A DNA stretch of 64,000 nt from Hanleya hanleyi (lineage: Eukaryota > Mollusca > Polyplacophora > Lepidopleurida > Hanleyidae), in contig JAVTVY010047966.1 in assembly GCA_036873755.1 (NCBI GenBank), positions 161,849 to 225,848 on the forward strand. The letters run 5' to 3'. The stretch's first letter is position 1. The number at the start of each line of letters is the position of its first letter. Shown piece by piece: positions 4,506 through 64,000 of this stretch. Both the position numbers and the translations under genes were made by a program. The notes beneath the pieces were generated by a model that was not told the DNA's origin, ran no database searches, and saw nothing but the letters and a program-made list of their open reading frames with translations.

Positions 4506-4638
4506 ACAGGCAGACGAGGTCAAAATACTCGCTTCTGATTGGCTGGTCAGGTCAGGTAAGTCACAGTGCTCCGCAAAAGTAGTGCAATGAATACTCCCTA
4601 CCCTAAAAATCGACTCCTTTTATACGTTTTTCTATAAT

Positions 4639-5282
4639 CCGCCATCTTGTCCCACCACCCACCACACACGCCGCCATCTTGTCCCACCACCCACCATCCA
4701 CAGCCGCCATCTTGTCCCACCACCCACCACACACGCCGCCATCTTGTCCCACCACCCACCATCCACAGCCGCCATCTTGTCCCACCACCCACCATCCACA
4801 GCCGCCATCTTGTCCCATCACCCACCATCCACAGCCGCCATCTTGTCCCACCACCCACCATCCACAGCCGCCATCTTGTCCCACCACCCACCATCCACAG
4901 CCGCCATCTTGTCCCACCAATCCACAGCCGCCATCTTGTCCCACCAATCCACAGCCGCCATCTTGTCCCACCAATCCACAGCCGCCATCTTGTCCCACCA
5001 CCCACCATCCACAGCCGCCATCTTGTCCCACCACCCACAGCCGCCATCTTGTCCCACCACCCACCATCCACAGCCGCCATCTTGTCCCACCACCCACCAT
5101 CCACAGCCGCCATCTTGTCCCACCACCCACCACGCCGCCATCTTGTCCCACCATCCACCATCCACAGCCGCCATCTTGTCCCACCACCCACCATCCACAG
5201 CCGCCATCTTGTCCCACCACCCACCATCCACAGCCGCCATCTTGTCCCACCACCCACCATCCACACACGCCGCCATCTTGTC
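4639..5282. repeat. Minisatellite of about 21 YY1-like sites inside the TIR
   Basis: Units of mostly 33 bases (some 27-32), each with GCCGCCATCTTGTCCCACC followed by a CCACC-rich spacer. I count 21 copies of CCGCCATCTTG. The reverse complement, CAAGATGGCGG, matches the YY1 consensus (AANATGGCGGC). The long open frames across this stretch are products of the repeat, not genes. Confidence 0.9.
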
Positions 5283-5322
5283 CCACCACCCACCATCCAC
5301 GCATGCGCACACCACCAATTGT

Positions 5323-5352
5323 GACGTCACCCAAGGTTCTGCGCATGCGCAC
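5323..5352. promoter_or_regulatory. CRE and NRF1-like sites near the Polinton terminus
   Basis: TGACGTCA is followed within about 20 bases by TGCGCATGCGCA, a palindromic NRF1-type site. The same pair occurs in the other TIR near 55319-55346. Confidence 0.55.
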
Positions 5353-5388
5353 TGACGCGCTATTGCGCCAATTTACGCCTTGTATACT

Positions 5389-5828
5389 ACTTACATGGCT
5401 AATCTGTGGTATACACATCTTTGTATCTACATATGCTTTATAGCCTGTTTAAACCGCTACAGTAATTTATTTTATTAAGTTTTAGCACTCGAATACCATT
5501 TAGATTATTGTTATATATCTATGTGTTTTATGTAAAATTGAATGCATACAAATATTTAAGGTTACAAATATGGTTGTATGAGTTCATTTTATACAGCCGG
5601 TGAATGTCATTGTCATTTGGTACATAGTTCAATTCTGGTATCGATTAAGTTCATATATGATTGATTCTAGGTTCAGTACCCCCATTTCAACACTGCGTGT
5701 TGATTCCACACTCCGTAGTATCCACATTATATTGTAACATTTGTGGATCTCAAATTTGTAAGTGGATTCAGGTCAATATTGTTTGACTCTCCCCCCCCCC
5801 CCCAGCCGAAAAGGTACATCACTAAGAA
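5389..5828. other. Host flank with no gene seen
   Basis: AT-rich sequence between the Polinton end and the LINE ORF1. It holds a run of C (about 5791-5804) and no convincing ORF. It could be the truncated downstream part of the LINE. Confidence 0.5.
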
Positions 5829-7032: not shown

Positions 7033-7735
7033 AAAATGGTTCAACCACGAGGCAGAGGGATGAAAATGGTTCAACCATGAGATAGAGGTGTGAAAATGGT
7101 TCGACCACGAGATAAGGTGTAAAATGATTCACTCGTGAGATAGAGGGGTGAAAATGGTTCAACTATGAGATAGAGGTGTGAAAATGGTTCAACCATGAGA
7201 CAGAGGTGTGAAAATGGTTCAGTCGTGAGATACAGGTGTGAAAATGGTTCAACCATGAGATAGAGGTGTGAAAATGGTTCAACCATGAGATAGAGGTGTG
7301 AAAATTGTTCGGTCATGAGATAGAGGTGTGAAAATTGTTCGGTCATGAGATAGAGGTGAGAAAATGTTTCAATCATGAGATAGAGGTGTGAAAATGGTTC
7401 AGCCATGAGATAGAGGTGTGAAAATGGTTCAACCATGAGATAGAGGTGTGAAAATGGTTCAACCATGAGATAGAGGTGTGAAAATGGTTCAACCATGAGA
7501 TAGAGGTGTGAAAATGGTTCAACCAGGAGATAGAGGTGTAAAAATGGTTCAACCATGCGATAGAGGTGTGAAAATGGTTCAACCATGAGATAGAGGTGTG
7601 AAAATGGTTCAATCATGAGATAGAGGTGTGAAAATGGTTCAACCATGAGACAGAGGTGTGAAAATGGTTCAATCATGAGATAGAGGTGTGAAAATGGTTC
7701 AACCATGAGATAGAGGTGTGAGAATGATTCAATTA
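7033..7735. repeat. 30-bp minisatellite (about 23 copies)
   Basis: Unit AAAATGGTTCAACCATGAGA followed by TAGAGGTGTG. Each unit contains the short inverted repeat GGTTcaACC. Copies are 85-100% alike, with the decayed ones at the left. Open frames over it are repeat artefacts. Confidence 0.95.
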
Positions 7736-7739
7736 TGGG

Positions 7740-9045
7740 ACATTGAATGGGTGATTTATCGCATTCGGCTTTTGCGCTAGTTTTACATGAAAAGTGCTTA
7801 TTTCTAAAAATTTAGTTTTTGGCATGGTTATACTCTATAGTCATAGTCAGTCATCTACATACGGGAGAAAATCCTTGAGATAGCGTATATAATATGTGAA
7901 TGATTTACAGAAGATAGACTATCCTATAATATCATTTGAAGCTCCTTGATGTTCTTCGAGTGGGAGAAAATACTTGAATTAATTTGGAGCCCGAAAGCCA
8001 AGTACGTCTGCACGGATTACAGAAGAGGACATCGAAGTGCTGCAAATGATTTCAAGGCTACACTAAAAAGAACTTGAATGTCATTATCCTATAAGTAGAT
8101 GACTTGGGTGCTCCAAACATCTTCGATACCATCCTTGAGTCAGTGCTCTACATTATTTAAGGTTATCTACCTCATATTTGGGTGACCAAGCTGCTCCAAA
8201 TGATGCTCCATACATAGATGACGTAGGTTTTTCAAATGATTCCAAGGTTATTCTCTCGTATGCAGATGATTTTGATGTCTCAAATACCTTTAATATCTTG
8301 TATACGCAGACGATTCCGAAACGTTTTAGTTGATACTGTTCCGACATTTTGACCATGTCAAGTCGTTTTACCCAAAGATAAAACTTTATGGGATGCACTT
8401 GTCATCCCGTTTTTTCCCAGCTTTTGCATTTTGTCCCAATCGTGACAAGGAGTGCTGTCTCTATATGCAGGGTTAGCCCTTAGGAGAATTTGGACAAAAA
8501 CGGGTTGCAGTAAAGCATAGAGTCGCAATCTTGGTTTTGGAGTTGGGATTCTTTCAGATACAATGTTTTCGTCTGTTTCTGCTGCTGTTAAGAGGATCCG
8601 AGCGACTAGGAGCACCATCTGTTCGCTGGAGAAGCAAAGTGAATGAGTCAATGCAGGGTGCGATTTCTGAACTCCGGATTATTACGTTAATGGTTAATAC
8701 GTTAAATAGATACTGAAAGCTCTCGGTGGTGACACGAGTATAGGCCTACTCTCAGACAATTTTTTTTTACATCTTATCTCAAAACAATAAAAGCACTGCG
8801 ATGGAACAACGAAAACTAGAGTTGGTGGTGGCTCTTATTTACTGTGAACAGATACAATTTCTCTTTAATCTTGTGGATATATTCTTCTATTTTAAAAACA
8901 GATTCTAGTCTAATCCTGCATCATCGTGTTAGATCGATTCTACATGGTCAAAGTACATCATCAGGTGACATGGTAATATATAGTACATGTATATTCAGTT
9001 ATCTCCGTATATGTCATTCACCTTCTGTGGCAATCGACCTTACTT
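7740..9045. repeat. Intergenic; degenerate tandem repeat at about 7890-8330
   Basis: Several loosely similar units of roughly 50-60 bases (TAGATGAC...GCTCCAAA..ATTCCAAGGTTA) can be followed at 7890-8330. The rest holds no gene I can support. The small frames here lack any recognisable motif. Confidence 0.4.
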
Positions 9046-10178: not shown

Positions 10179-12248
10179 TCAGAGCGTCAGCGAGTTTTCA
10201 CAATGCCAGGAACTATCGGGCGAGTTTTCACAATGCCAGGAACTATCGGTAGAGGACCCGGATTCTCGCCCAGTTATATTTCCAGGTTCGGTTGTTTTCC
10301 AGATATTCTGTGATACCGATACAGCGTCTGGGTCAATTTCGTTCAAATGATCGTCTCCCTTACAATCTGTGTAAGATTTGTTTTCAATTTCTAAGATTTG
10401 GGAAATGTCTCTGGTTGAATTTTGATTAAGATCCTCTGAACATTTCTGGTTCTTTTGGCGCCTGAACCACCTCCATCTAGATTTCTTGCTGATGTTTGAT
10501 TCCACTTCCGAAGGATTGGCCACAGATTTCCTCTTCTTGGGTTTTGTACCATTCGACCTCATAGTCTTCGGCTTGGTATTCTCGAAAAAGCTTTTGGCTT
10601 TAGTAAATTTGCTAGCGGCTTTCGAAGTAGCATCGGGGACATCATGAACATCGGCAACAGCGGATAACGCATTTGAAGCACCGTCGTGGATACCTGAAGC
10701 AACATCCTGAATATCCGAAATAACACCCGGTTTATCCGCGTCGTTCAAGCCATCCATTGCGGCTTTGCATTCCGATTCATCTACATGTACCGGTGGCTCA
10801 GTTTCAATGTTTTGATTAGGGTAGGTATCTTGATCCTTTTCTTGTAAACTAACTTCCGGTTCACAGAGAATATTTGGGTTTCCCGTTTGGCATCTTTCGC
10901 CCAGCAGCTCACGTCGAGATTCATTAAGCAAGAGTAATAAATTATGCCAGTGGACCTTTGACCGATTCTGTATCCTTACCATGTCCGAATCGCACTTGTT
11001 ATCATTTTTAACTGTATCGTGGTACATATGCAACTTCGGTTGATCCGAAAGATGTTTCCCTTTTGATTTAAAACGTTTAATTTTTGCATCCTTGGGAACA
11101 TCGAAACTCCATTTCGGAACATCAAGACGGCAAATTTTCCCTCCTTCCTTATATTTATCATTATAGTTAACTAGGTATGGATTCTCAGAATCCCCCTCCC
11201 CAGAACATCCGGGTATTTCTCGTTTGGTTCCCTGTACATGGCTTCCTGCCCAGGTCTCGCGTTGGGGACCAGATTCCATGTCAGCGGGATTCAACGACAT
11301 CATGGTTATGTTCAAAATTTCGTTTTCCACGGTTTTTGAAGACGCCGATTCCTTTTTCGCTTTAGACGATTTTTTGATACAATTATGTCGACTTTCTCGT
11401 TGTTTTTTCTCTTTATCTTTTGATGTTTTATTCATTGGATTCTCAATAACCATTGCTCCAGGGTCCTCCAGTGGTAGTAATTTGCTATGCCCAGTACCGG
11501 ACATTGTCGACGGTAAGATGGGAATGTCTTCGAGTTGCGCCTGGTTCTGATGTGACTCAGGATTTTGAATTTTCCTTTGTTCACTCTCGTCTCTCTTCCT
11601 TCGCTCCTCCTCTCTCAAAGCTAACTGATTTGCCAAAACACCAGCTTTCAATAGGAACAAATCGTCAAACAATGAATCGGACTTTTGACGTTTAATAATT
11701 TTGAGGCTTTCGACGTATAAAACTACGAGCCTGTACAACTGTAATAGATTGACCAAGGTGTTCTTAGCTGTAAAGAAAATGTTTGAGTAGCTAACAACGT
11801 TGTAGCGGAATATCAATATCATGCGAAGAACCAGAAATGGACCGTCCTGTAAGACAATTGTGGTAAGGATGGACACGATCTCCGATCGACAACACGAACA
11901 ACATCCATTATCCTCAAGATGTTCGCCAGAGAGCGGTTTGTTAAAAGAAGGTCTTGGTTTTCTCGCTTTCGTGGCCGACAAAACGATACAGAATTGCAGC
12001 AAACTCGCTGTCCAAAGGGAAAGAATTATGATTGTCAGCTTTTCGTTGTACTTCACTTCCTCCTCTTTGAAAGCTTCGAACAATTCGATAATGTCCGCCG
12101 CCATACCGATGTAAACGAGGAGGAGCTGTGAGAGCTGTTCTCGAGTTATCTCCCCTTTCGGAAGTAGCCATCTCCCAACAATGAGGACAAGTAACAGTAC
12201 CTGCTCCAGAATCTTTACCCAATCGTCTGGTTCCAGGTAAAAGTTGAA
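10179..12248 (-). CDS. TMEM26-like gene, exon 3 (terminal)
   Basis: Starts after TTTCAG with FNFYLEPDDW and carries the C-terminal membrane core (to about residue 210 of the exon) plus the long hydrophilic tail. Features of the tail are a Lys-rich stretch (KDKEKKQRESRH), an Ala/Asp repeat-like part (DVASGIHDGASNALSAVADV) and basic motifs KPKKRK and KKSRWRWFRRQK that could bind phospholipid or act as nuclear-type signals. The end contains a 29/30-bp tandem duplication (10189-10248) coding SSWHCENS twice. Confidence 0.85.
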   Translation of the reverse strand, partial: FNFYLEPDDWVKILEQVLLLVLIVGRWLLPKGEITREQLSQLLLVYIGMAADIIELFEAFKEEEVKYNEKLTIIILSLWTASLLQFCIVLSATKARKPRPSFNKPLSGEHLEDNGCCSCCRSEIVSILTTIVLQDGPFLVLRMILIFRYNVVSYSNIFFTAKNTLVNLLQLYRLVVLYVESLKIIKRQKSDSLFDDLFLLKAGVLANQLALREEERRKRDESEQRKIQNPESHQNQAQLEDIPILPSTMSGTGHSKLLPLEDPGAMVIENPMNKTSKDKEKKQRESRHNCIKKSSKAKKESASSKTVENEILNITMMSLNPADMESGPQRETWAGSHVQGTKREIPGCSGEGDSENPYLVNYNDKYKEGGKICRLDVPKWSFDVPKDAKIKRFKSKGKHLSDQPKLHMYHDTVKNDNKCDSDMVRIQNRSKVHWHNLLLLLNESRRELLGERCQTGNPNILCEPEVSLQEKDQDTYPNQNIETEPPVHVDESECKAAMDGLNDADKPGVISDIQDVASGIHDGASNALSAVADVHDVPDATSKAASKFTKAKSFFENTKPKTMRSNGTKPKKRKSVANPSEVESNISKKSRWRWFRRQKNQKCSEDLNQNSTRDISQILEIENKSYTDCKGDDHLNEIDPDAVSVSQNIWKTTEPGNITGRESGSSTDSSWHCENSPDSSWHCENSLTL

Positions 12249-15200
12249 CTGAAATGAAAAAGAGCAAACTTTGTCAAATACATTGGGAGTGCTAAATAGG
12301 TTATCCATGTTCTCGGTTATCGATTGTTCATCCACATACTTATACACGTCTGGTATTGTCCACGAGCCTGAGATGGCGTTCTTGCCGTTGATAGGCTATA
12401 ATGGCCACCTGCTCACTGATCTGATACGCAGGCGCAGGCTGGCTTATTCTATGCCAGCAAAGCAATCGCTCTTTGATGTTGGAGGGCGCCGATTTTAGCT
12501 CGGACCAGTCTCTCTTTACACGAAATTACGTCCTGAACCTGTAATCTGTCCTGAATCGATTTGGTTTCAAAATAGGTGTGTTTGAGTGATGTAACGATCT
12601 AGTAATCTAAATTTTCTTAACGATACTCTAACAAGAACGACAGCTTCGCCAACGATCGTAGAACATTGTAACTAATGCGCGGACACGGAAGATGGACACG
12701 CACTCGTGCCCTGTCAAGGTCACGGCAATAAAACATGCAGTGGTGTAATCAATGTGGACCGTTTACTATAATGCTTTCACACGAAACCAAATACGCTCCA
12801 TTTAAAACTATTCATTTACAAACGGTGGAACCACATGTTATGCCATCACCGAGAAGAAAGAAACAAACCCATACACATAGTGGCTGATTTGTGCCATTTC
12901 TTGTTTTCGCATTTACGCGGAGAAAATGTCTTGTTTATGTGGTTTCGTCTGTCGTGAATTTTACCTTTGTCATGGCATCAGATTTATAACTCTCAGGTGT
13001 TACATCGACATATTAAGGATGTTCGCTGCTGGTAAATCAAAGTACTTAACTTTTTGAATAATGTGTGCTGTTGCATTCATAATTGTGTAATATGAGGAAA
13101 AACAAAGAAAAAAATATAGGTTGGTGTGCATTTTTTAGCTGTAGGCAACAATAAGTGGACTGACACATGCTCCATTTGATAACCCAGAAAACATAGGGAA
13201 TAGCCCTAGTTTTGAAGAATATTCATGAAAAATTCATATGAATAGTTTTTACCTTTTTCTTATATTCACTGTTTGCAGATAATCACAATGTCTATCAAAA
13301 TTTATCAAATTGGATGGATGTTGCTGTGCAAAATTCTCAGCTAGAAGACTTTCAAAGAAAATCCGTATCTCTTAACTTAGGAAAGAGAGATAACCTAATA
13401 GGAAAATCAGGCAAAATGGCCACCAAAGCCAAAAATCACCAGCGGACTTCCTTAAGAGATTACCAACTCTGAAAATGGAAGAATGATTGCAAAAATCATG
13501 ATGGCAAAATCAGCAACCCTACATATTAAAATCAGCCATGTTATTTAGAGCAAATAGCTCAAGTAGTAATTGGTTTTAGAGCATAAGATGCTATTATCGT
13601 AGACTTTACTAATTCAGCCCCTTGGTTGTCGAATCAGGAGATAATGATTTTAGATTACCACGATCTGGCACCAACTATGTATTCAGCAGAAGCATGCTGC
13701 CAAATATCTTAACGAGGTGAATAGTTTCGGGACGATAATGGATTTGTGCGTTAATTATTGGTTTTCTACGCTGTGAAATATCAGGTATCACACCAAGATC
13801 GTCGAGGTTAAAGCGTTAACACAATCAGGAATGTTTCACCAATGGGCGATGTTTCTGTTAATCAGCTCATCTCCCGACCTTCAATATTATCTATAAAAGT
13901 CACGTCTGAGCCAGCTGTTCGCGATGAGTCACGCAAGATATCTCGGATGACTGATCCTTTCGAACATTGATTGGCCATTATAGCTGGTCTGTGACGTATT
14001 TTAAAATGTTTCTATAATATTTGACACCTCTGGTGTCGGGCTGGATGGCCCTATTTCTGGTGGTCTCATCTCGAAAAAATGGTGGGGAATGTATGCTGAA
14101 TTTTCCATATGTTTGAGCGGAAAGGCCAGGCTACCTGGTGTGGTGGGTTATTTGTGGCGGCGAATATTAGGGAATATAGTTTTCTCAAGATGTGCTCTAT
14201 AGTGGGGAAACACGCACTGAATCTGACCTCATGATAGTGTTGCATATTCTAAGAAAGAGTCGCAATGAGTACATGTATGGATGGCCTACAATCCTTAACC
14301 CGCCGTGGTTCTTCTCCGAGACAGTACTTCTCGAAGACAGCCAACAGCTGAAATAATGTTCTAGTCAATAAAAAAATATTGTCTTGAAAGATAGAAGCGG
14401 AAATGGACCCAGCTTTCACATTATTAATCGCTTAATTAAGTCGACACAGTCCCTGGCCCATTTTTTGACAATAAAAATTAGACGTTAACAAGAAATTGGA
14501 GCTGTTGCTACAAATAGATAATCTATTCACCACCGGTATATTTCTCTAAAATTTTGCTACCGATTCACTCTTCCGCAAGAGTTCAATTCCAGGATGAAGG
14601 TGTGAATGTCTCACACATCCCATAGTGATCTTCGAGCGCGCACTGGATTGGCTGAACATACTAACTTGCCACTATACTATAAGCAAATAAATTTAAACAA
14701 TTCTACCTTTCCTAGAAATAAGGACAGGCGTTCGTGTTCCACCTCGTCTCGTGACTTGGTGTCGTGGACTTGAAGCCGTATCCTCCTGGTCAGAAGGTCA
14801 AGTTCCAGAAACCATATGGCCGGAAGTGTGCTGGCTAGGTACAGGAAGACGCTAGGGCAAAACCTGCGGAAATAAGCAGAGAGAACATTGATGGATTATG
14901 TTCTCTGTAGATAGTGATTAAAATTTACAAATAATAGCGACTAAGTAATATTAATGTGTGCATACATATATGCCATATTGGAATTATTACAGATGCAGCT
15001 GAGAAATTATCCGCCTTCAGTTAGTTTCAGCATAAAAGAAGGAGTGTTCATCATAAGGGATGATCTGTTCTCATTCTTGTAATTCAATAAATGCAGTGAG
15101 AATGAATGCCGGTTACCTGGCGATATTAACTGATTAGCATCAGTTTGTAGGATTAGGAATAACTGTAAACCGAAGAATATCTGTGAACCGAAGAACTTGT

Positions 15201-34802: not shown

Positions 34803-36064
34803 TTGGATCTAACTTTTACAAAACCTACAGCTCCGAATAGCTCCTGGGTCTGGACCACATAAATGAAGGGATCTAGTTTATCGGTGCTATGGCAAAAATA
34901 TCATGTAGAATGGGATTGTGTGGATAATATCAGATTCATGAAAGTTGAAGTTCTGCAGCATGCTCCACAAATATCATCAAAGATCATAAAACTTTCTGGT
35001 CTGCACCAGGGTAGATCTATACTTGTTTGGGTTTTCTAACAAAATTATCTCCCTTGACCAGGTGAGGACTTGAATGTGTCTGAAATGATTTAGCTTCTAG
35101 AAACAAAGACTTCATTTCCTGAGTAGAGGTAAAAACCGAACATATTTTGATCATTTTATTCAAATTTCAATTCCACTTCTGGTATATGTACATGTATAAA
35201 ATACATACAGAATGAACTGCATACAGAATAACACAAAGAACAGGTATATGTATCTCATTACATTCTTAACCAAAGATCAATACCTGGGTGATATTACAAC
35301 AATACCATGGTGTTATATATTGTTATGATTGGCTTAACTTTAGCTGCTGGAGATATTTCTAATTTGAGGGTAATGGGCAATCATACTAAATTTATTTTTA
35401 TAACTTCATTTATTTTCACAATAAGCAACATAATCGAGATTAGCAAGTGAAGTTTTACAACATAATATAATACGCATCATGGGTCTCCTTCAGTTTAGTG
35501 TAGACATATATACCCTTGAATATCTGTTACCATGATTCAGTCATAATATTGTCTGTAATATATTGATGTCGACAAGGAATATATATAAAAATAATATTAT
35601 TTGATAGTATTATTAATTGTATGTTGTTTATGATTAACATGAACTTTTTATTCGCTGGAATCCAGCCAATTGTTCCATATGGGCAATATTCTCATCAGCC
35701 ATCACCATTCAATATGAATGTCATACATGTACAAGTCCATGGTAATTGATACAGTATGGTGAAGGTGACCTGTAACACCAGTATACAAATTTATTCCGAG
35801 CTCATTGAATCATCATCACATGATGCTGAGACAGATCAGAACGGAGTGTCGGTAAAATCAGATGTGTTTTGTAGAGGATTCTGTAAATGAGGATGCTATA
35901 CTGCACACATACAAAATATGAAGTGTTGATGTGTAGGGCCTATAGCACAAAATCACAAGCAAGTTGGTAAAACTAGGCACACAGGGTCTCATTTCTGCCG
36001 CTAACGTGTTAATTTGGGTGGGAGCGTCCTCTCAGGGGGAGGTGTGGGTGAGAAGGGGCCTAAT

Positions 36065-36509
36065 GGTCACAAACCTCCATTGCATTTAGTGGGTCCAAGA
36101 TAATATTTGGGAGTAAACTTTCGGCGACTACTGATTGGCTGTTATTCTAAGTGGCAGTGAAATGGTTTGTGCTATATTCTATAATTCATTCCTATATTAT
36201 TTGACGCTCAGGAATATGGAAGAACCATTGTCACAGGTTAATAAAAAAAAATTTAGCCCGGTTTTCTTGACCTCCCTCAACCCTGGTTACCAAGGCATTA
36301 GACGCCATGCCCTCATTCCCAGGATCTGCCATTCAGAAAAATGGTGGGGAATGTATGCTGATTTTTCCATATTTTTTAGAGGAAAAGCCAGGCTATCCAG
36401 TGTGGTATGTGAGTAGTGGCCGCGAATATTAGGGAATATAGTTTTGGCCAGATGTGCCCAGCTCATTTACTACATAATAAGTAAGGCAAATATTTAGTGG
36501 TTTGTGACC
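36065..36509. repeat. 445-bp LTR-like direct repeat, left copy
   Basis: Begins GGTCACAAACC and ends GGTTTGTGACC, i.e. an 11-bp inverted repeat at its own ends. Nearly identical to 39763-40208 in the same orientation. Preceded by TAAT, which also follows the right copy. Confidence 0.92.
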
Positions 36510-36521
36510 TTTACGTCAAAA

Positions 36522-36880
36522 TGTCATTTTTGACAAATTTGAAAATTGTGACCGAGGTTGTTCGATATTCCTGAGAAAAATGGAGCCAAAACTCACAATG
36601 GGGGGTATGGAAAACTAAATTTTAAATCACCAAATGGTGAAAAAAGGAGTATAGGGCCCACAGGCTACAATACATGGTGGCGAAGAGAATACCCCTGCTC
36701 CCAACACACGATCCTGCTGGTCATGCCCTCGATGTCAGCCATATTTGCCATTTGCGGACCTGTCTCAATCCAGCACATCTCACATTAGAGCTCCATTCCA
36801 TAAATATGGAGAGGCTTCAGTGTAAAAATCAGGGCAGGTGTTTTCAGTTCCATATCCCCTATTGCTTGCTATAACAATTA
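36522..36880 (+). pseudogene. I-PpoI-like His-Me (His-Cys box) endonuclease relic
   Basis: Two plus-strand frames carry consecutive parts of one domain. The first has NGGYGKLNFKSPNGEKR and a YNTWW stretch. The second, one frame over from about 36690, has SHICHLRTCLNPAHL, then N in INMERLQC and a last GRC. In I-PpoI-type enzymes the His of SHxCH and the Asn about 20 residues later are the catalytic pair, and the Cys/His residues hold zinc; all are present. The break is near 36685-36695, and the N-terminal part (from the ATG at 36522) is also out of frame. The gene sits just inside the left direct repeat and faces the transposase gene. Such domains occur in mobile introns and in some invertebrate elements. 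Confidence 0.7.
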
Positions 36881-36955
36881 AATGTTCAGGTAAGCTATAC
36901 CTACACCTCTTTACACCCCCCTCCCCCCTCCCCCCCACTAGAAGTTATATAATTC

Positions 36956-39108
36956 TCACTTCTCACTACTATCACTTTCGGCTTCTCTTTTTCTGCGCAG
37001 ATTATAGTATGAATGAAGGCGGAGAAGCTCAGGCCTGGTCTCATATTCCACCACTGGTTTTAACATATCTGTTTTATAATATTCTCCCCCCTCTTCCCCG
37101 ATTTTTGCATGTAATTCATAGAGAAATTTTTTCTTAGCAATTCTGGCAGCTTTCGCATCAGCACTAGCCTTGGCGACTTTTCCTTTGTCATCGATTCTCT
37201 GTGTTCTGTTCAGTTCTCGAGCCACACACGACCCCTTGGTAATTGGAGCAGAAACAGATTCACATTGTTTAATTATTGATTCAGTGATTCCAGAATTAAC
37301 AGCACTGATTGCACTGTGTGTTCTGGCTTCAAAGTTTCTCGAGAAAGTTTTGTTTTTGGGGACAGACTTACTGATGGCACGATTTACAGCTTCACTTTTC
37401 TGTGTGTTCAACATGTGTTTTGTCTTTTCCAGAATGTCCTGGCCTATTCTGAAATTTATACATTCTCTGAGTTTAACTGCATCTAAAGTTATGAATGGAA
37501 TGTCAGCTATTTCATCTTCAGCATCAATGAGTTCATCCACTAAAGGCATTTCTGTTACATCAGGTTCATTTTCAGTTCTGAAATTAACTTTGAAGTTAGC
37601 AGACAGAAAACAGCTATTCACAATCCAGTTGTCTGTCCTCGACCATTTACACACATAGGAATACATCCTGCATAAAGAGTGATCTCCCTTATAACACTCC
37701 ACGATTGCATCGGTAACATATGTCATTGCAGATTTCAGTTTCTGTTGGTGTCGACCAAGCTGCCGGTGTGCTTCCTTGTGTTCCGCATGACATCTGCTGG
37801 CCAGATCATCTGCGAATCGACTGTGTTGTTTTTTCCGATCATCTGCAGTTTTACCCGGGAACATATCCGCACTGAACACCATCTTATTAATCTTCTTTCT
37901 TTGACTTTTTCCAAGGTGGCGAGTATCTAGCTGGTGTTTCGGTTCAGAAGACATGTCACCCTGATAATACATGTCACTCGCTGCAGAAAATGACCCACCG
38001 TCAGCATCTGTAGTGACATGCTTCACTTCAGTGCCACATTTAGTTATATTTTCAAAACTCTCCTTGGCCCACTGTTTTTCATTGCCAATCACATCATGCC
38101 TTTGTAATGTGGCCGAACAGTGCCCTTTATGGTCTGGGCACTTAACAGCCTTTCCAGTTTTTCTCTCTATCCGTCTTGCTGTTTGACAAAGTTTGTTTTT
38201 TAGCACTAAATCGATCACCCTCTTCTGTTTTGTAGAGTTCTCGATGTTTGTCAAGCTCACCTGAGTAGCCGGCTGGAACGGTGTTTTTCCAACAGATGAA
38301 TATGGAGGATTATTATATCTGCAGTCCATTTCCACATTAATTGGAGAATTTATAGGTAATTGTTTCACTTGATTCATTCCCTCAATCTCCTGAATAACTT
38401 CTAACATGTCACTTTTGTTCTGCTCCACCAATTTCTCACCCACTAAGTAACTAGCTTTCTGCATACCACTGAGGGAGGGGCTTGGCATATTCAGTGTGTG
38501 AAGCACCTGATTAAATTCTGTATTTCCAATGCTGGTATGACTCAGGCCCACCTGTAACCGGTAATTGGGAGCGACTGGATTCCTCCCCGGTTTTCCTCTC
38601 TTCACTTCATCAAACAGTTTCCATCTTTCGGACCTGAACCAGCACTGGTTGCAAACTAAGTTTTCTTCAAAACCCATTCCTCGTTTAGTTTCTCCCTTAA
38701 AGTCCCATGTTAATTTTCCAACACAACTTGGATTAAACTTTAAGTGCTCTGAAAATGCAGAATTCCACATGTTCGCTGTTTGCCCTAAATGTAAGAATCT
38801 ATAGGTGTTCAGTTCTGGGTTATCGGTATCCGCCTTCAGGTATGTGTCCATAAGGCGAGGGGCAGGTGGGCCGGGTCTCAGTAATCCTGTGTCGCAAGTC
38901 TCCATATCTGCATCCACCAGGTTTATGCGCTCTATCCTGTCCTGGCCAATCTCAGACTTCACATAGTTTTGGAATACTCTCTCATCAAGTCGGACATATT
39001 TTTTCAAATTTCTTCCGATTTTTTTTCCGGGCTGGCTTTCCAATGATCATAGGCGACATGCCCTTTTTTGAACCTAGTTGGCACATTTTTCCTCTTTCCT
39101 TTGGCCAT
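36956..39108 (-). pseudogene. Mutator-like transposase, one frameshift near the N-terminus
   Basis: An open frame of 695 codons (39043 to 36956) is preceded in another frame by an ATG at 39108 with a basic start (MAKGKRKNVPTRFKKGH). The join lies in a run of eight T (plus strand 39019-39026). The product has the layout of the large 'Mutator-like transposase' family of invertebrate proteins: a Cys pair (CNQCW), a first acidic residue in VEMDCRY, a CxxH-type stretch (KCPDHKGHCSA), a second acidic position in HVTTDADGG, a HQLDTRHLGKSQRKK motif and a helical C-terminal half with ADDLASRCHAEHKEA. It probably cuts and joins element ends. It lies between the two 445-bp direct repeats. Superfamily (Mutator or Kolobok) is uncertain, because the outer ends show TTAA. 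Confidence 0.75.
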
Positions 39109-39762
39109 GATTATAAAACTTCCCACAAAATATATCTTACTATCTCTCTCTTCAATGAATAACTTGTTTCTGTGGTTTAATCCCAGCAGCTTTCATTTTA
39201 TTTGGAATATCTAGACTGTCCTTGACCTATCCCCCCATCTCTTATCTAACAGGCTGGTGCAATCAATGCCATAAATCTCCCAGAGATTGGTGTAATTTTA
39301 ATCTTTTATTTGAATTGAAGCATCATAATCAATGTATCTTTCTTGCCAAGTAACTCTTAAGTTGTTTGTTTCCCAGCAGATAAAACAGTAGGGTCGATTT
39401 CCAAAGATAATCTCTATTTAGGGGGGAGGGGTGATATCCTGTTACATAACTCCAGCCTGGTAGATAGTGAGGTAAATTCAAACCCAGTGTGAAAACACTG
39501 AATGCCAACATTAAACAAGAAACACAAAATATTTCAGTTTTCAAAGTTTTGTTTTAAAATATATAGACTCTTGCCCTTTCATAGGAATGAAAATACATTC
39601 CTAATACATGTTAATGTACAAATATAGGTTGACTATATATTCTGCTAATAACTTTACAGCAAATAGCCATAGAATGTTAATATTCACACATACAAGTACT
39701 AATGATACATGGATTTCACAGATGCAATTTTATTAATTTCTTTTCAATTTTGTCTATTTGTA

Positions 39763-40208
39763 GGTCACAAACCTCCATTGCATTTAGTGGGTCCAAGATA
39801 ATATTTGGGAGTAAACTTTCGGCGACCACTGATTGGCTGTTATTCTAAGTGGCAGTGAAATGGTTTGTGCTATATTCTATAATTCATTCCTATATTATTT
39901 GACGCTCAGGAATATGGAAGAACCATTGTCACAGGTTAATAAAAAAAAAATTTAGCCCGGTTTTCTTGACCTCCCTCAACCCTGGTTACCAAGGCATTAG
40001 ACGCCATGCCCTCATTCCCAGGATCTGCCATTCAGAAAAATGGTGGGGAATGTATGCTGATTTTTCCATATTTTTTAGAGGAAAAGCCAGGCTATCCAGT
40101 GTGGTATGTGAGTAGTGGCCGCGAATATTAGGGAATATAGTTTTGGCCAGATGTGCCCAGCTCATTTACTACATAATAAGTAAGGCAAATATTTAGTGGT
40201 TTGTGACC
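39763..40208. repeat. 445-bp LTR-like direct repeat, right copy
   Basis: Almost base-for-base the same as 36065-36509, with the same GGTCACAAACC / GGTTTGTGACC ends. Followed by TAAT. Confidence 0.92.
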
Positions 40209-40666
40209 TAATGTCTCAAGCAGTATTCCAGGGTTTTCATTAATATACTCTATTCCATACCCCAATGTGACTTCCACATCCCTAACTGGACATGCTAGTG
40301 GGGAACCCACAATCTCAGGTTAATTACCATTGGTGAAGTTAACGTTTAACAAATGCAAAATTGAGCTTGGCATCCGGCCCTATGTTATTCAGTGATGTAT
40401 TCCCCTAATGACCCTGTTGCCTCGACGGAGGTCTTTGCGCTCATCCAGCGCTTGGTATTACGCAGTTTTGATTACCGCATGCCGTGAAGTTTCCCGGGAG
40501 CGAATATCGATACAGAACTCGCGATGTCAGCTGATATAAAACGTTTTTGGACTATAAGAACGTCTGTAAATAAACGTAAATTGCAATCAAATCATTTAGT
40601 TATAATTATTTGTGGAGTCAACGATCATAGAATATAGTTATCCTCTAGTCGTTTTCCACCACCCTG

Positions 40667-41830
40667 TTAATGTTGCCTTTAATTGTTGCCTGTATATGGT
40701 GAGATTCTGTTGGTTGACGTTTCGTTGCCGGAGGCTTGCCCTCTGTACAAAATCATTGCGATGTTAGCTTTGTGACTTGGAAACATGGTGGAGAATGAAG
40801 CGCCGGTGTGAGTCGAGCGTCATGGGTATTTGTTTTGAATACGAACTTGCATTATATTAATACTCCCTGGCTTGGGCGGGTTTATTTGTTTGTTGTTTTT
40901 TTTCAATCACGCGGTCACATAGTTCATCATTTTCCATCAGATGACTTGGTAGAGTTATTACATTTTTGTTCTGGGATATTTTCATTAATACCGCTCAAGC
41001 CGGTGCTACGGGACGTGTGGTCATGTAATTAAAGATGTCCACATGAACAACTACCATAAAAGCGTTGCTGAGATAAAAATCTTCAGGGATAATTTTTGAT
41101 TGCTGTGATGTTTTTGAAAATATGCAGTCAGTATATATTTGTCTGTTGAGTCATGTGTGTTCTTGTCAGTACGCCGGCATCGTTTTACACCGCCCTTTTT
41201 ATTATTGCGTTTAATTGTTGCTTGTATATGGTGATATTCTGTTGGTGGCCTCTTCATCCCCGAGGCTTGCCCTCTGTACAAATCATTGTGATTGTAGTTT
41301 TGTGACTTGTAATCATGGTGGAGAACGAAGCGCTTGGTCGACGTCGGGCCTCACGGGTATTTGTCCTGAATAAGAAATTGCATTCTATAAATAGTCCCTT
41401 GTTCAATCTGGCGATCACATAGTTCATCATTTTTCATCAGATGACTTGATACGTTATTTTTCTGAGCTATTTGTATCTAATACCGCTCTAGCCGGCGCCG
41501 GTGCTAGAGACTGTGTGGTCACGTCATTCAAGTTGTCCACATGAACAGCTACAATCAAAACGTTGCAGGCATATAAATCATCACAGGGATCACTTTTGGT
41601 TCTTGTGATGTTTTTAGAAATATGCAGTCAGTCAATCTGATTAAAACTCAGACTTAAAAAACCGCTCCTATCAGCGACATGTCCGATAGAGGAGCGGTTT
41701 TTTAAGTCTGAGTTTTAATCAGATTGGCAGTCAGTATATTTGACTGTGGGGTCATATGACTTCTTGTCAGTACGTCGGCATCATTTTTACCACTCTTTTA
41801 ATGTTGCGTTAAATTATTACAACATTTTGC
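40667..41830. repeat. Degenerate ~530-bp tandem repeat
   Basis: Landmarks GAGGCTTGCCCTCTGTACAA (40730, 41262), TTCATCATTTTCCATCAGAT-like (40922, 41423) and CTTGTCAGTACG (41162, 41763) recur in order. The TTAA element is inserted in the first unit. Pieces with the 'GTTCATATGAACA..AAAGCGT' signature recur at 46470 and 52225. Confidence 0.65.
41633..41726. mobile_element. 94-bp fold-back MITE with 9-bp target duplication
   Basis: Arms start CAATCTGATTAAAACTCAGA and continue to CCGCTCCTATC; the right arm is a nearly perfect inverted copy around a loop of about a dozen bases. GCAGTCAGT flanks both sides exactly (41624-41632, 41727-41735). A 9-base duplication points to a Mutator-type source. Confidence 0.9.
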
Positions 41831-49934: not shown

Positions 49935-50113
49935 CGGAAAAATGGTGGTGAATGTATAGGCTGAATATTTTTAATGTTTGAGCGGAAAAGTCAGGCTACC
50001 TGACGCGGTAGGTCATTCGTGCCGGCTAATATTAAGGAATATAGTTTTGTCAGAATGTGCTCACCCGATTTACTACATATTAAGTAAGGCTGTTTTTAGT
50101 GGTTTGTGACCTT
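49935..50113. repeat. Third copy (right part) of the GGTTTGTGACC repeat family
   Basis: Shares AAAATGGTGGTGAATGTATA, TTACTACATATTAAGTAAGG and the terminal GGTTTGTGACC with the 445-bp repeats, but is more diverged and lacks the left half. Confidence 0.8.
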
Positions 50114-50598
50114 AACCAAGATTCCCACAGCATAATGTTAAACTGGGTCATATTGTGCTACCATAATATCTCATTTCATGAGGATTCCATGGTTAGCTCT
50201 TTTACCTGTACGCCACATATCCTTAACATTATAACCTGGCGCACCTAGATGATTTTCCTCAACCCTGGTTTTCAACCGTACAGACCAAAATTACCTAATT
50301 TATACCACGTATGCATATCTAACCCAAAATACGATGGGTTCTTACATTACTCAGCTGTGTTTCTTCCATGCATTGAAAAATACAAATACAAATATCAGTT
50401 GAATATATGTGAGATAATAATAACACTCGAGTTGAACAAGATGTCACAGTTACATATATATAAGCATCACCGTGAAACATACAAATCAGTTACCTGGTAT
50501 CACATTTCAGAGAAATATCGCAGTAGTGCATAAAAAATAATCAAGAAATACATGTATATGACTAGGGCTGCACATGTAATTGTATTTATCAAGTTGTC

Positions 50599-51775
50599 AG
50601 CGGCCCATCAAATGTATCTCCGACCCATCAACTGTATCTCCGACTCATCTACTGTATCTCAGACCCATCAAATGTATCTCCGACCCATCAACTGTATCTC
50701 CGATCCATCAAATGTATCTCCGACCCATCAACTGTATCTCCGACCCATCAACTGTATCTCCGACCTATCCACTGTGTCTCAGACCCATCAAATGTATCTC
50801 CGACCCATCCACTGTATCTCCGACCCATCAATTGTATCTCCGACCCATCAACTGTATCTCCGACCCATCTACTGTATCTCCGACCCATCAAATGTATCTC
50901 CGACCCATCAACTGTATCTCCGACCCATCTACTGTATCTCAGACCCATCAACTGTATCTCAGACCCATCAACTGTATCTCAGACCCACCTACTGTATCTC
51001 AGACCCATCAACTGTATCTCCGACCCATCTACTGTATCTCAGACCCATCAAATGTATCTCGGATCCATCAATTGTATCTCCGACCCATCAACTGTATCTC
51101 CGACCCATCTACTGTATCTCAGACCCATCAAATGTATCTCCGACCCCTCAACTGTATCTCCGACTTATCAACTGAATCTCCGACACATCAACTGTATCTC
51201 CGAACCATCAATTGTATTTCCGACCCATCAACTGTATCTCCGACCCATCTACTGTATCTCCGACCCATCAAATGTATCTCCGACCCATCAACTGTATCTC
51301 CGACCCATCTACTGTATCTCAGACCCATCAACTGTATCTCAGACCCATCAACTGTATCTCAGACCCACCTACTGTATCTCCGACCCATCAACTGTATCTC
51401 CGACCCATCTACTGTATCTCAGACCCATCAAATGTATCTCGGATCCATCAATTGTATCTCCGACCCATCAACTGTATCTCCGACCCATCTACTGTATCTC
51501 AGACCCATCAAATGTATCTCCGACCCCTCAACTGTATCTCCGACTTATCAACTGAATCTCCGACACATCAACTGTATCTCCGAACCATCAATTGTATTTC
51601 CGACCCATCAACTGTATCTCCGACCCATCTACTGTATCTCAGACCCATCAAATGTGTCTCCGACCCATCAACTGTATCTCCGACTTATCAACTTTCTCTC
51701 CGACACATCAACTGTATCTCCGAAACATCAATTGTATCTCCGACACATCAACTGTATCTCCGATCCATTATTTCG
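50599..51775. repeat. 20-bp satellite with 380-bp higher-order unit
   Basis: About 59 copies of CGACCCATCAACTGTATCTC with ordered variants. The block at about 51061-51240 returns at 51441-51620, an offset of exactly 380 bases (19 units). Reading frames across it are artefacts. Confidence 0.95.
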
Positions 51776-51789
51776 TTTCGTTTATCTCT

Positions 51790-52580
51790 AGAAAACAAAA
51801 ACGTCTTAATGTAAACGCTTTTATAACGCCTACCGGTTCATGTCACGTAGGGCCATGTAAATTGGGTTATAACAGAGTTTACATAAGATCTTGATAAAAT
51901 TCTTTCGCATTTAATCAATTCTAAACAGGAACTCATGTAACCAAATGATCTTCTTGAACTACATACAATCTTGATATAAATTCTTCCGCGTCTAAATCTT
52001 TCTGATAGGCTAGACCTACACTATTTGTAATTTAGCAACATTTTACTGGATACATGGGTAACGTTGCCCATCGATTTAAATTCATCGGTATACAATCTCT
52101 TGGCAGTGTTATTTTCTGGGAATCGAGTTATATAGAGTTTTGAATCTCGGGTGCTTCTGTTTGTATACGTCTAATTCTCCTTATTCCAGTCCTAATGCCG
52201 TATAAACATCGTGTTATACCCATATGTATGGTGTTCATATGAACAATCACAGAAGAAGTGTGACCGAATGTACTCTGAAAGTAATCGATTTTGGGAATAT
52301 ATCGGGGAAACGAATATAGGGGACTGAAGTAATGATATGTGTATATCGGTTCGCTTAACTCGAGGGCTATTGGACCGTTTCCATAGTGTTCAGTTATACA
52401 GTGTTCAAGTAAACAATATCAAAGATTGTCTGACATATATTACACTCTAGAAAACGACCTGGAATTTCGCTTGGATTAAAGAAGACTTGTCAGAACATCA
52501 TGATGCCATTGTCGTCATTGAAAACTACTCACCGCTTTTCTTTCACAAGAAACCTAATTTGTTATTTTACTTCCATGTTA
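51790..52580. other. Spacer with no gene seen
   Basis: Carries a diverged piece of the 41-kb repeat family near 52219-52265 (GGTGTTCATATGAACAATCA). Small frames only. Confidence 0.4.
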
Positions 52581-55281: not shown

Positions 55282-56255
55282 AGTATACAAAGCGTAAATT
55301 GGCGAAGTAGCGCCTCACTGCGCATGCGCAGAACCTTGTGTGACGTCATAAGTGTGCGCAGAAAAAAAAAATGGGGCGGTATTGGGGGCGGTGTGCGCAT
55401 GCGTGATGTGGAGGGCGCCAGTGGAAGATGTGGGAGGTGGGTACAAGATGGGCCGCCAAGTGTCAGTCAGTGCAAGATGTGGGAGGTGGGTACAAGATGG
55501 CCGCCAAGTGTCAGTCAGTGCAAGATGGGAGGGCGCTGCATGCCGCGTCGTCAAAAAGATGTGGGAGGTGGGTACCACATTGCCGCCAGTGTCAGTCAGT
55601 GCAAGATGTGGAGGTGGTAGCAACATGGCCGCCATGTGGGAGGTGGGTACAAGATGGCCGCCAGTGTCATGATGTGGGAGGGGGGTACAAGATGGCCGCC
55701 ATGTGGGAGGTGGGTACAAGATGGCCGCCATGTGGGAGGTGGGTACAAGATGGCCGCCATGTGGGAGGTGGGTACAAGATGGCCGCCAGTGTCAGTGAGT
55801 GCAAGATGTGGGAGGTGGGTACAAGATGGCCGCCATGTGGGAGGTGGGTACAAGATGGCCGCCATGTGGGAGGTGGGCACAAGATGGCCGCCATGTGGGA
55901 GGTGGGTACAAGATGGCCGCCATGTGGGAGGTGGGTACAAGATGGCCGCCATGTGGGAGGTGGGTACAAGATGGCCGCCATGTGGGAGGTGGGTACAAGA
56001 TGGCCGCCAGTGTCATGATGTGGGAGGTGGGTACAAGATGGCCGCCAGTGTCATGATGTGGGAGGTGGGTACAAGATGGCCGCCAGTGGAAGATGTGGGA
56101 GGTGGGTACAAGATGGCCGCCATGTGGGAGGTGGGTACAAGATGGCCGCCAGTGGAAGATGTGGGAGGTGGGTACAAGATGGCCGCCAGTAGTAAAATGT
56201 ATAAAAGGAGTTGATTTTTAGGGAAAGGGTGTATTCAATCTGACTTACCTGACCT
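55282..56255. repeat. Polinton terminal inverted repeat, protease side
   Basis: Starts AGTATACAAAGCGTAAATTG, then TGCGCATGCGCAGAACCTT with TGACGTCA, the minisatellite and TATAAAAGGAGTTGATTTTT. It is the inverted counterpart of 5388-4546. GGCAGT (55276-55281) would be the 6-base target duplication; its partner is outside the window. Confidence 0.8.
55425..56190. repeat. Minisatellite of about 20 YY1-like sites, second TIR
   Basis: Unit GTGGGAGGTGGGTACAAGAT followed by GGCCGCCAT (29 bases) with occasional GTGTCAGTCAGTGCAAGAT inserts. About 21 AAGATGGCCGCC-like motifs. The spacer differs from that of the left TIR, while the ATGGC core is kept. Confidence 0.9.
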
Positions 56256-62308: not shown

Positions 62309-63615
62309 TTAGGTGGAGAAGTCACACAGGACGTTGCGCGCCTTGTCCACTTGAATGATGTCAAACTCGGCGTGGCAGATCACATTGACGGTGGTCGCCA
62401 GGGCTCGTGCAAATTGGATTTCCAACCGTAAGTTGCCTTGCTTGGCTAGGGCCAGCTGATGGTCGTTCTCTAAGGTGGGGGTGAGATCGAAACAGAACAA
62501 CGTGTATCCGTTCCCGTAGTCCTCCCGACTGATCATATTCCCTTCGTCCTGGTTGATTTGACCGGTGGCTGTAAACAGGCTCTGATAGGCTCGAATGAAA
62601 TTCCTCCGCCCAAAGTTCGGGGTTAAGGCCGTGGCTGGCACCTGTTGTCCATCCACATGCAGGGCCACAAAAGTGATGCCGAAATGTTTAAAGTCAAACG
62701 GATTCTCTGGGTAGGCTCCGCTGAAACTGGTATTTTCTACACAGGCCAGGATCAATCGCTTGGGTAGTTCCCCCAGAAACAGGTTTTCTTTGTTGGCGCC
62801 CATATTTCCAGCAGGCACAGAGAACACTTTGGTTTGCACACGTCGGATAGGGTACTGGGCTGGTTTTGTTTCCAAGGCTTTCATGTGTCCCAATTGAACG
62901 GCTGGATTCGGTTTCACTTTTCGGACATACAGGACTGCGTCTTGGATGACAATCTTATAGTCCGCTACTTGCCCCTCTACGTTAGTGGCCATCAAGGCGA
63001 AGGTCGGAGGCGCCCGTATCAGTCGGATTTTGATGGGGATCTTGTTCAAGAGGTACCGGTCTTGCATGAACATGTCTGCATGCAGTCGACCCATCATATC
63101 CACCGAGGCACTGTTCGCAGTGAAAGCCTTCCGTTTGTCATATCCCCATTGTCCGCCGTGTCCATGTGCTCGGCCGTGTCCCTGTAGAATAAAGCGGTTG
63201 TCAGCTGAGATTTTTTAGCCTCTCGGCCATACGACAACAGTGTCTCGATGTAGGCTCGATAGGGGTACGTGTTGGTGGAGTCACTGATGAGTTTGTCGCT
63301 GAGAAAAATGTCCACCTGCTGAAACATCGAGTGCAGCCAGAGATTCGTCGGGCCCACCGTTGCTTGGTCAGCGATTCTGGTGCCAGCTCCATTGACCACC
63401 TTGGCTTTCACATACAAGTAGGTATGGGCTAAATCCACATAGGCCGTATCCGCATTACTGATGGTGACCTCGATGGGTCCGGTTTCGTTGATGCTGGAGA
63501 GCGGGAGATGCTCCACCCATAATCCTTGTTCGACACTGGTTTGTGTGGGCGGCACGGTCCACAAATCAAATTCACTGTTGGTGGAGGGGCAGGACTCGGC
63601 GTGGATTAAGGCCAT
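62309..63615 (-). pseudogene. Polinton major capsid protein (double jelly-roll), one frameshift
   Basis: The start is the ATG at 63615 in AAAACATGGCC. The N-terminal part (to about 63145) has the family signature DLWTVPPTQTSVEQG and WLHSMFQQVDIFLSDKLIS, ending near LFYRDTAEHMD. The rest, in another frame, has MMGRLHADMFMQDRYL, IVIQDAVLYVRKVK and NPFDFKHFGITFVALHVDG. These match the major capsid proteins of Mavericks/Polintons, whose two jelly-roll domains build the icosahedral shell. The frame changes once at about 63135-63150. Combined length of about 435 residues is normal. The 5' end overlaps the preceding basic-protein gene by 44 bases, and the stop lies one base from the protease ATG, so these three genes are tightly packed and probably share a transcript. 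Confidence 0.92.
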
Positions 63616-64000
63616 GTTTTAAGAAAAAGATATCCCGGGTCTTCTTGGATGTGCGTCGTCGCTGGGTCGGTCGTCGACTGGTGCGTGATCTCGGTGGGGC
63701 AGCTCTTTTATTCCCTACGGTGCGTTGTGCTTTCGCCACCAAGACGCCTCCCGCTTCTTTGGCCCGTCGTTTCAAGGCTTGTCGGGGTGCCGTACCCCCC
63801 AAAACATCACCGGCCACTTGCAGTCCACTGCGTACCGCTTGTTTGCCGGTTGCTTTCACCCCACGCGTCACCAAGGGCAGGAACGTTTTCACAATGCTGC
63901 CGAGTATGTTCCCCAGTCCATGTCCTCGTTGCATGCGTGCACCGCTAAAGACCGGAAAGCCACCCCCGGCCTGTTGGCCATAATAGTCGGCATAGCTGCG
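63572..64000 (-). CDS. Polinton basic virion protein (N-terminus outside window)
   Basis: The frame is open from the right edge to a stop at 63572. Visible parts are a Gly/Tyr-rich start (YYGQQAGGGFPVFSGAR), then RGHGLGNILGSIVKTFLPLV, an amphipathic Ala/Gly region and a strongly basic tail (TSRRPTQRRRTSKKTR). Polinton proteins of this type lie just before the capsid gene and are regarded as minor capsid or membrane-active internal proteins, somewhat like adenovirus protein VI or X. The C-terminus overlaps the capsid start. The ATG inside the visible part (63934) is not the likely start, because the conserved Gly-rich segment lies upstream of it. Confidence 0.75.
   Translation of the reverse strand, partial: RSYADYYGQQAGGGFPVFSGARMQRGHGLGNILGSIVKTFLPLVTRGVKATGKQAVRSGLQVAGDVLGGTAPRQALKRRAKEAGGVLVAKAQRTVGNKRAAPPRSRTSRRPTQRRRTSKKTRDIFFLKHGLNPRRVLPLHQQ

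Follow-up and report, generated by a model that had tools for sequence, protein, structure and literature searches.

A KolobokP-like composite element in Hanleya hanleyi and a tetranucleotide pattern at the insertion flanks of its relatives that may reflect their donor sites

A 64,000-nucleotide stretch of the genome of the mollusc Hanleya hanleyi (contig JAVTVY010047966.1, positions 161,849 to 225,848; referred to here as the window) was shown to carry a unit of 4,144 bp, in which two long terminal direct repeats (LTDRs) enclose an internal region (INT) with a DDD/E transposase gene and a convergent I-PpoI-like nuclease gene (Table 1). The two LTDRs exhibit 99.55% identity over 447 columns (BLAST), with a single mismatch and a single indel within an A run. 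Each LTDR starts with GGTCACAAACC and finishes with GGTTTGTGACC, an exact copy of GGTCACAAACC or its reverse complement being present at all four LTDR ends, and these termini represent perfect 11-bp inverted repeats of the form GG...CC. A search of the window for GGTCACAAACC, with at most one mismatch, yielded five matches, all of them exact, against a chance expectation of 1.01; the fifth is located at 50101-50111. TAAT was observed at the outer ends of the unit only, the inner flanks being TTTA (36510-36513) and TGTA (39759-39762), and it is the outer rather than the inner flanks that form a target-site duplication, indicative of one insertion of the whole unit. The original prediction, which was made from the sequence of the window, had described near-identical direct repeats with these termini, the outer TAAT, a single insertion and a DDE-type DNA transposon with LTR-like direct repeats and the appearance of a composite transposon, all of which were confirmed. 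An LTR (long terminal repeat) retrotransposon was rejected, as Pfam analysis of all 12 open reading frames of at least 60 amino acids in 35700-40700 identified a reverse transcriptase in 0 of 12; above-cut-off matches were obtained for two of the 12, i.e. the transposase and the nuclease.

Table 1. Features of the composite unit in the window
Feature	Position	Strand	Basis
Left outer target-site duplication, TAAT	36061..36064	.	sequence, flank reading
Left LTDR, 445 bp, with its own 11-bp terminal inverted repeats GGTCACAAACC/GGTTTGTGACC	36065..36509	+	
INT, first bases TTTA, last bases TGTA	36510..39762	+	
Nuclease remnant (His-Me finger, His-Cys box, I-PpoI-like)	36582..36874	+	PF05551, sister alignment
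DDD/E transposase, PF20700, frame interrupted	36956..39108	-	Pfam, sister comparison
Right LTDR, 446 bp, termini as in left LTDR	39763..40208	+	
Right outer target-site duplication, TAAT	40209..40212	.	sequence, flank reading

The frame at 36956-39043 (minus strand) matched PF20700, 'Mutator-like transposase' (E=1.7e-49), and the convergent frame at 36674-36874 (plus strand) matched PF05551 (E=6.9e-10). The predicted pairing of a transposase with a convergent I-PpoI-like nuclease was upheld by both Pfam families, but the nuclease of the window copy is truncated and its transposase frame interrupted. 'Mutator-like' is the Pfam label of PF20700, whereas elements of this architecture have been placed in the Kolobok superfamily in the literature. 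The window nuclease lacks 85 bp, including the start codon, a region present in all nine aligned sister copies, and is one base short in an A run, a shortfall shared among these nine by copy L011. The transposase frame is broken at a homopolymer run (approximately 39019-39026) that is one base longer in copy L012. Because the shorter run is also found in L010, L014 and L015, the interruption may represent a homopolymer polymorphism or an error of assembly and need not be damage specific to the window copy. Uninterrupted transposase frames of 744-745 amino acids from stop to stop were found in L011, L012, L016 and L017. The host genome thus contains copies in which both genes are uninterrupted, as in L012, whose transposase comprises 717 amino acids from its ATG (PF20700, E=1.8e-49) and whose nuclease comprises 126 amino acids (PF05551, E=6.9e-15).

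Alignment of 17 transposase sequences revealed that D262, D370, H398, C472, C480 and C487 are invariant, and that C308, D368, H477 and E573 are nearly so, with a consensus DTRH ending at H398. A putative DxxH signature and putative zinc-finger cysteines were assigned from this alignment, the catalytic residues representing our reading of it. The nuclease could be aligned to I-PpoI with the catalytic pattern SH.CH...C.NP.HL..E....N...C, the sequence-only match being weak (E=0.088), while a search of the protein collection for nuclease homologues returned two candidates, neither of which reached E <= 0.001.

Based on architecture and gene content, the window unit is predicted to be a damaged KolobokP monomer (LTDR-INT-LTDR). 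It had been put forward as an undescribed mobile system, a claim that does not hold, as KolobokP has been in the literature since 2022 (Kojima and Bao, Mob DNA 13:24; PMC9587614); the window unit is one more family of this already published lineage and, as a discovery, ordinary. In the main text of that publication, to which all statements on KolobokP made here refer, the INT lies between LTDRs of ~450 or ~660 bp, which possess their own 11-18-bp inverted repeats with 5'-RR/YY-3' termini, and encodes a DDD/E transposase and a convergent His-Cys box nuclease. Target duplications of 3-5 bp, solo repeats and multimers are reported, the composite plan is documented for 228 families, autonomous oyster families are 4,022-4,748 bp long, a range that includes the length of the window unit, and target specificity is relaxed. 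Each of the corresponding features was found in Hanleya: LTDRs of ~450 bp with their own inverted repeats and RR/YY ends, a Kolobok-type DDD/E transposase, a convergent I-PpoI-like nuclease of the His-Cys box type (in its L012 form), and solos, monomers and multimers with target duplications. The differences from published KolobokP elements concern sequence at the family level only, together with the truncated nuclease and interrupted transposase of the window copy.

Comparison with other known systems was consistent with this assignment. The window unit shares PF20700, the DxxH signature, the zinc-finger cysteines and the RR/YY termini with the Kolobok superfamily of TTAA-specific DNA transposons, but differs in its duplication (TAAT here, varied 4-bp sequences in other copies), its direct repeats and its nuclease; TTAA accounted for two of 28 duplications from three families, which excludes the strict superfamily rule only. 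A 4-bp duplication is also typical of piggyBac, whose 4-nt donor-flank overhang would account for the carry-over of donor bases considered below. However, piggyBac encodes a transposase of another superfamily according to the published classification, its fixed TTAA target is absent here, where varied duplications and PF20700 were found, and the mechanism proposed here is our inference. Bacterial composite transposons, i.e. pairs of insertion sequences (IS), likewise possess terminal repeats, each of which has inverted repeats at its borders and can move on its own, whereas the KolobokP transposase is located between the repeats and not inside them. With I-PpoI and other His-Cys box homing endonucleases, the nuclease shares PF05551 and the aligned catalytic pattern, but it is shorter (126 amino acids) and is located outside any group I intron.

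The distribution of the element was assessed in the 2.48-Gb host assembly, in which the window unit represents the locus on contig C43317. At least 42 LTDR matches on 29 contigs and at least 79 INT matches were identified; as 40 of 2337 LTDR candidates and 40 of 170 INT candidates were scored, these copy counts are lower bounds. Full LTDRs at both ends were found at a minimum of seven loci (C43317, C10559, C35748, C12400, C22449, C22612 and the dimer C17632, the latter with a TAAA duplication), units on C32040 and C34760 being damaged at one end, and the LTDR-INT junctions ttta and tgta recur at other loci. Solo LTDRs with equal 4-bp flanks were observed on C7589 (TATA), C29852 (TATA), C7829 (TTTG), C19076 (TTTA), C16358 (TAGA) and C39492 (TTAG, with one terminal base mutated). 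Further complete units, which the original prediction had proposed to look for (e.g. C10559, C12400 and the dimer C17632), therefore exist; it had also treated such units and single repeats with duplications of their own as mutually exclusive outcomes, yet the 445-bp repeat was found in both situations. LTDR pairs within units (nine pairs) differ by a mean of 2.1, compared with a mean of 4.8 between units.

Two more LTDR families (L024; L021/L022) exhibit the same plan, including nonautonomous arrays, and a fourth family is characterized by termini GGTAAAAAGGAAC. On C31727, C33041, C16101, C52132 and C9233, short nonautonomous units occur in tandem, with an LTDR every ~1.3 or 1.7 kb. The solo LTDRs on C7829 and C32513 have the same flanks, as do those at two places on C29852; these copies are accordingly taken to be segment duplications, or alleles that were assembled separately, and not independent insertions.

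To relate the insertion flanks to the element, 44 distinct insertions with both outer flanks readable were compared (16 from family 1, nine from family 2 and 19 from family 3). Left out of family 1 were 13 of 29 contigs (C32040, C34760, C813, C50185, C43818, C37228, C12025, C29306, C18350, C18504, C31438, C16038 and C32513, which duplicates C7829), together with C7625 and one of the two C29852 copies, on the grounds of a truncated or rearranged LTDR, an adjoining INT or contig end, an unfetched other end or repeated flanks. Left out of families 2 and 3 were 15 of 24 and eight of 27 elements, respectively, with an INT on one or both sides, one flank only or repeated flanks. Identical 4-bp flanks were observed in 28 of the 44 insertions, and unequal flanks in the remaining 16. 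Within composite units, the INT-end tetranucleotide, which precedes a left LTDR end, is TGTA in families 1-3, while the INT-start tetranucleotide, which follows a right LTDR end, is TTTA in family 1, TGAA or TTCA in family 2, and TGTA or TTTA in family 3.

Of the 16 mismatched insertions, 12 had one flank identical to the INT-border tetranucleotide that their own family exhibits on that side. TGTA, the INT end, was the left flank in 8/16 and the right flank in 0/16, and the INT-start tetranucleotide was the left flank in none of the ten mismatched insertions of families 1 and 2. When unequal pairs were sampled from the 28 duplications, 12 or more of 16 were never reached in 200,000 trials. For family 3, the flanks were fetched after the prediction had been recorded, and five of six mismatched insertions fitted it. 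A boundary error, in which the LTDR would be four bases longer in some copies, was rejected, since the next four bases corresponded to the other flank in 0/12 cases, the best partial match being 3/4 (C16359). Three flank pairs were observed to be reverse complements of each other, namely TGTA/TACA on C36737 and C4150, and TGAA/TTCA on C52703 (L115-L116, L151-L152 and L145-L146).

These observations (the structure and family of the unit, its copy types and target duplications, mismatched flanks that resemble a donor tetranucleotide, and a single site shared by a solo and an array, described below) could be explained by a transposase that mobilizes LTDRs and whole units, with the donor tetranucleotide carried on a 5' overhang and sometimes kept, and with recombination between LTDRs as a separate process, a reading to which we assign a probability of roughly 0.6. 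The transposase of intact sister copies would recognize the short inverted repeats at both ends of every LTDR, because of which a single LTDR, a whole monomer or a monomer from a tandem array, (LTDR-INT)n-LTDR, could all serve as cargo, each resulting in a 4-bp target duplication. We infer that the strand not joined to the target is cleaved 4 nt outside the element, such that a 5' overhang of four donor flanking bases would remain on each excised end; a 4-nt donor-flank overhang is described for piggyBac (PMC7351741). On landing, this overhang would mostly be removed, a target duplication taking its place, and would in some cases be retained by ligation. In a separate process, recombination between LTDRs could turn an array into a solo, or a solo into an array, without a change of site.

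The INT-like flanks would then probably derive from the donor, rather than representing original target bases at mismatched insertions. Solos C12351, C49927, C16359, C10096, C36737, C24323, C7458 and C4150 would have left composite units, while monomers C10559, C22449 and C22612 and the C6938 array would have left larger arrays. The excision footprint published for KolobokP, in which a few bases are lost on one side and one tetranucleotide is kept at INT-INT junctions (main text of PMC9587614), fits a cut 4 nt outside the element. That KolobokP ends in particular retain a 5' overhang of four donor bases, which is sometimes stitched in to replace one copy of the duplication, is in our estimation about an even bet. 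If true, mismatched duplications record the origin of each LTDR and are proof that composite units and arrays release both single LTDRs and monomers, and the LTDR-4bp-LTDR tandems described below represent joined ends from the same cut. That sister copies seem to take four bases of the donor neighbourhood along when jumping is possibly new. As mismatched duplications would name the donor, the flank pattern makes the question of 2022 (cut-and-paste or circle, and mobility of solo LTDRs) readable from genome sequence, and it predicts in concrete terms how a Kolobok-type transposase cuts.

Several points weigh against donor-flank carry-over. The flank test was post hoc for families 1 and 2, which were the source of the pattern, and the tail is 0.005 if each insertion is granted a purposely generous chance of 0.4. 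As the INT of family 3 starts with TGTA or TTTA, TGTA is not end-specific in that family, and its left flank equalled an INT-start tetranucleotide in five of six mismatches, as opposed to 0/10 for families 1 and 2. Four of the 16 mismatches are unexplained (C35748, TCAA/TCGA; C13764, TAAG/TGAG; C18552, TAAC/TCTA; C52703, TGAA/TTCA); a flank derived from the outer side of a donor would be unrecognizable. Furthermore, the solo on C12351, where the LTDR is followed by TTTACG, with six bases agreeing with the INT, may represent a truncated INT. Finally, Kolobok is grouped by signature with hAT, P, MuDR and Dada, whereas piggyBac, the analogue for the overhang, is outside this group (main text of PMC9587614).

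A single site provides a direct comparison of a solo with an array. The solo LTDR on C24920 (L105, L106 and L166) and an array of four LTDRs on C18643 (L021, L022, L028 and L165) share 67/67 bases of the left flank, the same right flank as far as printed, and a TTCA duplication; the three inner LTDRs of the array differ from its last LTDR at the right end, and the solo exhibits the version of the last one. The two may be alleles or may belong to a duplicated segment. Their relationship appears to be that expected for recombination between the LTDRs of one insertion, and because C24920 and C18643 occupy one site with the same duplication, some solos seem to arise in place. This pair would equally be the product expected from the published model in which the nuclease spreads the element through putative cutting of LTDRs followed by unequal crossover. 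That multimers are common (the dimer C17632 and the arrays C16101, C33041, C52132 and C31727) also favours this model, but ordinary unequal crossover would yield the same C18643/C24920 pair, and we regard a nuclease-driven spread as possible, though rather unlikely.

Slightly less probable still is a copy-out-paste-in route through a circle, in which LTDR ends would be joined over a 4-bp spacer of donor flank; a circle route such as that of IS3 and IS256 has been proposed for KolobokP (main text of PMC9587614). Tandems that would suit such a route were encountered on two contigs, these being chance finds and not a genome-wide count. C8857 (L058) carries TTAA-LTDR-TGTA-LTDR-TTAA, in which both LTDRs have lost some sequence, the spacer corresponds to the INT-end tetranucleotide and TTAA forms the outer duplication, while C15057 (L083) carries INT-LTDR-TGAA-LTDR, the spacer corresponding to the INT-start tetranucleotide. 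Both look like joined element ends, derived from a circle or from direct joining. Published excision events, in which just one side loses a few bases, are also in agreement with a circle. Conversely, a shared spacer would be expected on either side equally, whereas the INT-end tetranucleotide was the right flank in 0/16 mismatched insertions. Neither LTDR-LTDR tandems nor INT tetranucleotides at landing sites were seen in the main text of PMC9587614.

When LTDR ends are joined, the four-base spacer is followed by GGT at the left end in all four families. The I-PpoI site, which we take to be TTAA followed by GGTAGC, resembles these joined ends in three bases only.

Recombination as the sole route, with all solos being leftovers of units or arrays and mismatched duplications reflecting ordinary mutation, is disfavoured and appears improbable. 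Many solos do possess identical 4-bp flanks, and the C24920 solo, with the right end of the last LTDR of the C18643 array at the same TTCA site, is of the type expected. However, in eight solos the flank on the matching side is an INT-like tetranucleotide, an outcome that within-unit recombination would not generate, and the pattern is rare among random unequal flanks. Two independent insertions of miniature inverted-repeat transposable elements around a Kolobok fragment, without any composite unit, are refuted: the LTDR does exist alone with its own duplication, but the ttta/tgta junctions recur elsewhere, the outer flanks form the duplication of the window copy, and the identical plan is published for 228 families (main text of PMC9587614).

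Elsewhere in the window, the repeats at 49935 and 14073, which had been taken for solo copies, were shown to be partial, diverged relics and not solo copies of the window family. The relic at 49934-50112 matches LTDR positions 269-446 only (77% identity) and ends with GGTTTGTGACC followed by TTAA, and that at 14075-14195 matches positions 273-393 only (86% identity); a left LTDR terminus was not seen in the sequence around 49935 and 14073.

The remaining features of the window include an integrase-chromodomain frame at 1560-2360 on the minus strand, with a match to Chromo (E=2.4e-07) and a match below cut-off to rve (0.001). Two overlapping minus-strand frames are located at 62309-63618, at the opposite end of the window. 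These presumably resemble a Polinton/Maverick capsid protein, Pfam analysis of the 62309-63214 piece having returned no match. A host-like gene fragment of the Tmem26 family, with an open frame of 738 amino acids (PF09772, E=2.7e-62), is located at 10179-12395 on the minus strand. Among its named matches listed, identity was highest to Patella caerulea (70%), Haliotis (65-67%), further gastropods and a nemertean, whereas the two best E-values belonged to a moth (43% identity) and a crinoid (40%). At 4591-5448, 7071-7811, 50534-51814 and 55407-56214, one or both strands contain long frames of repetitive sequence, which are probably minisatellite-like arrays and not genes.

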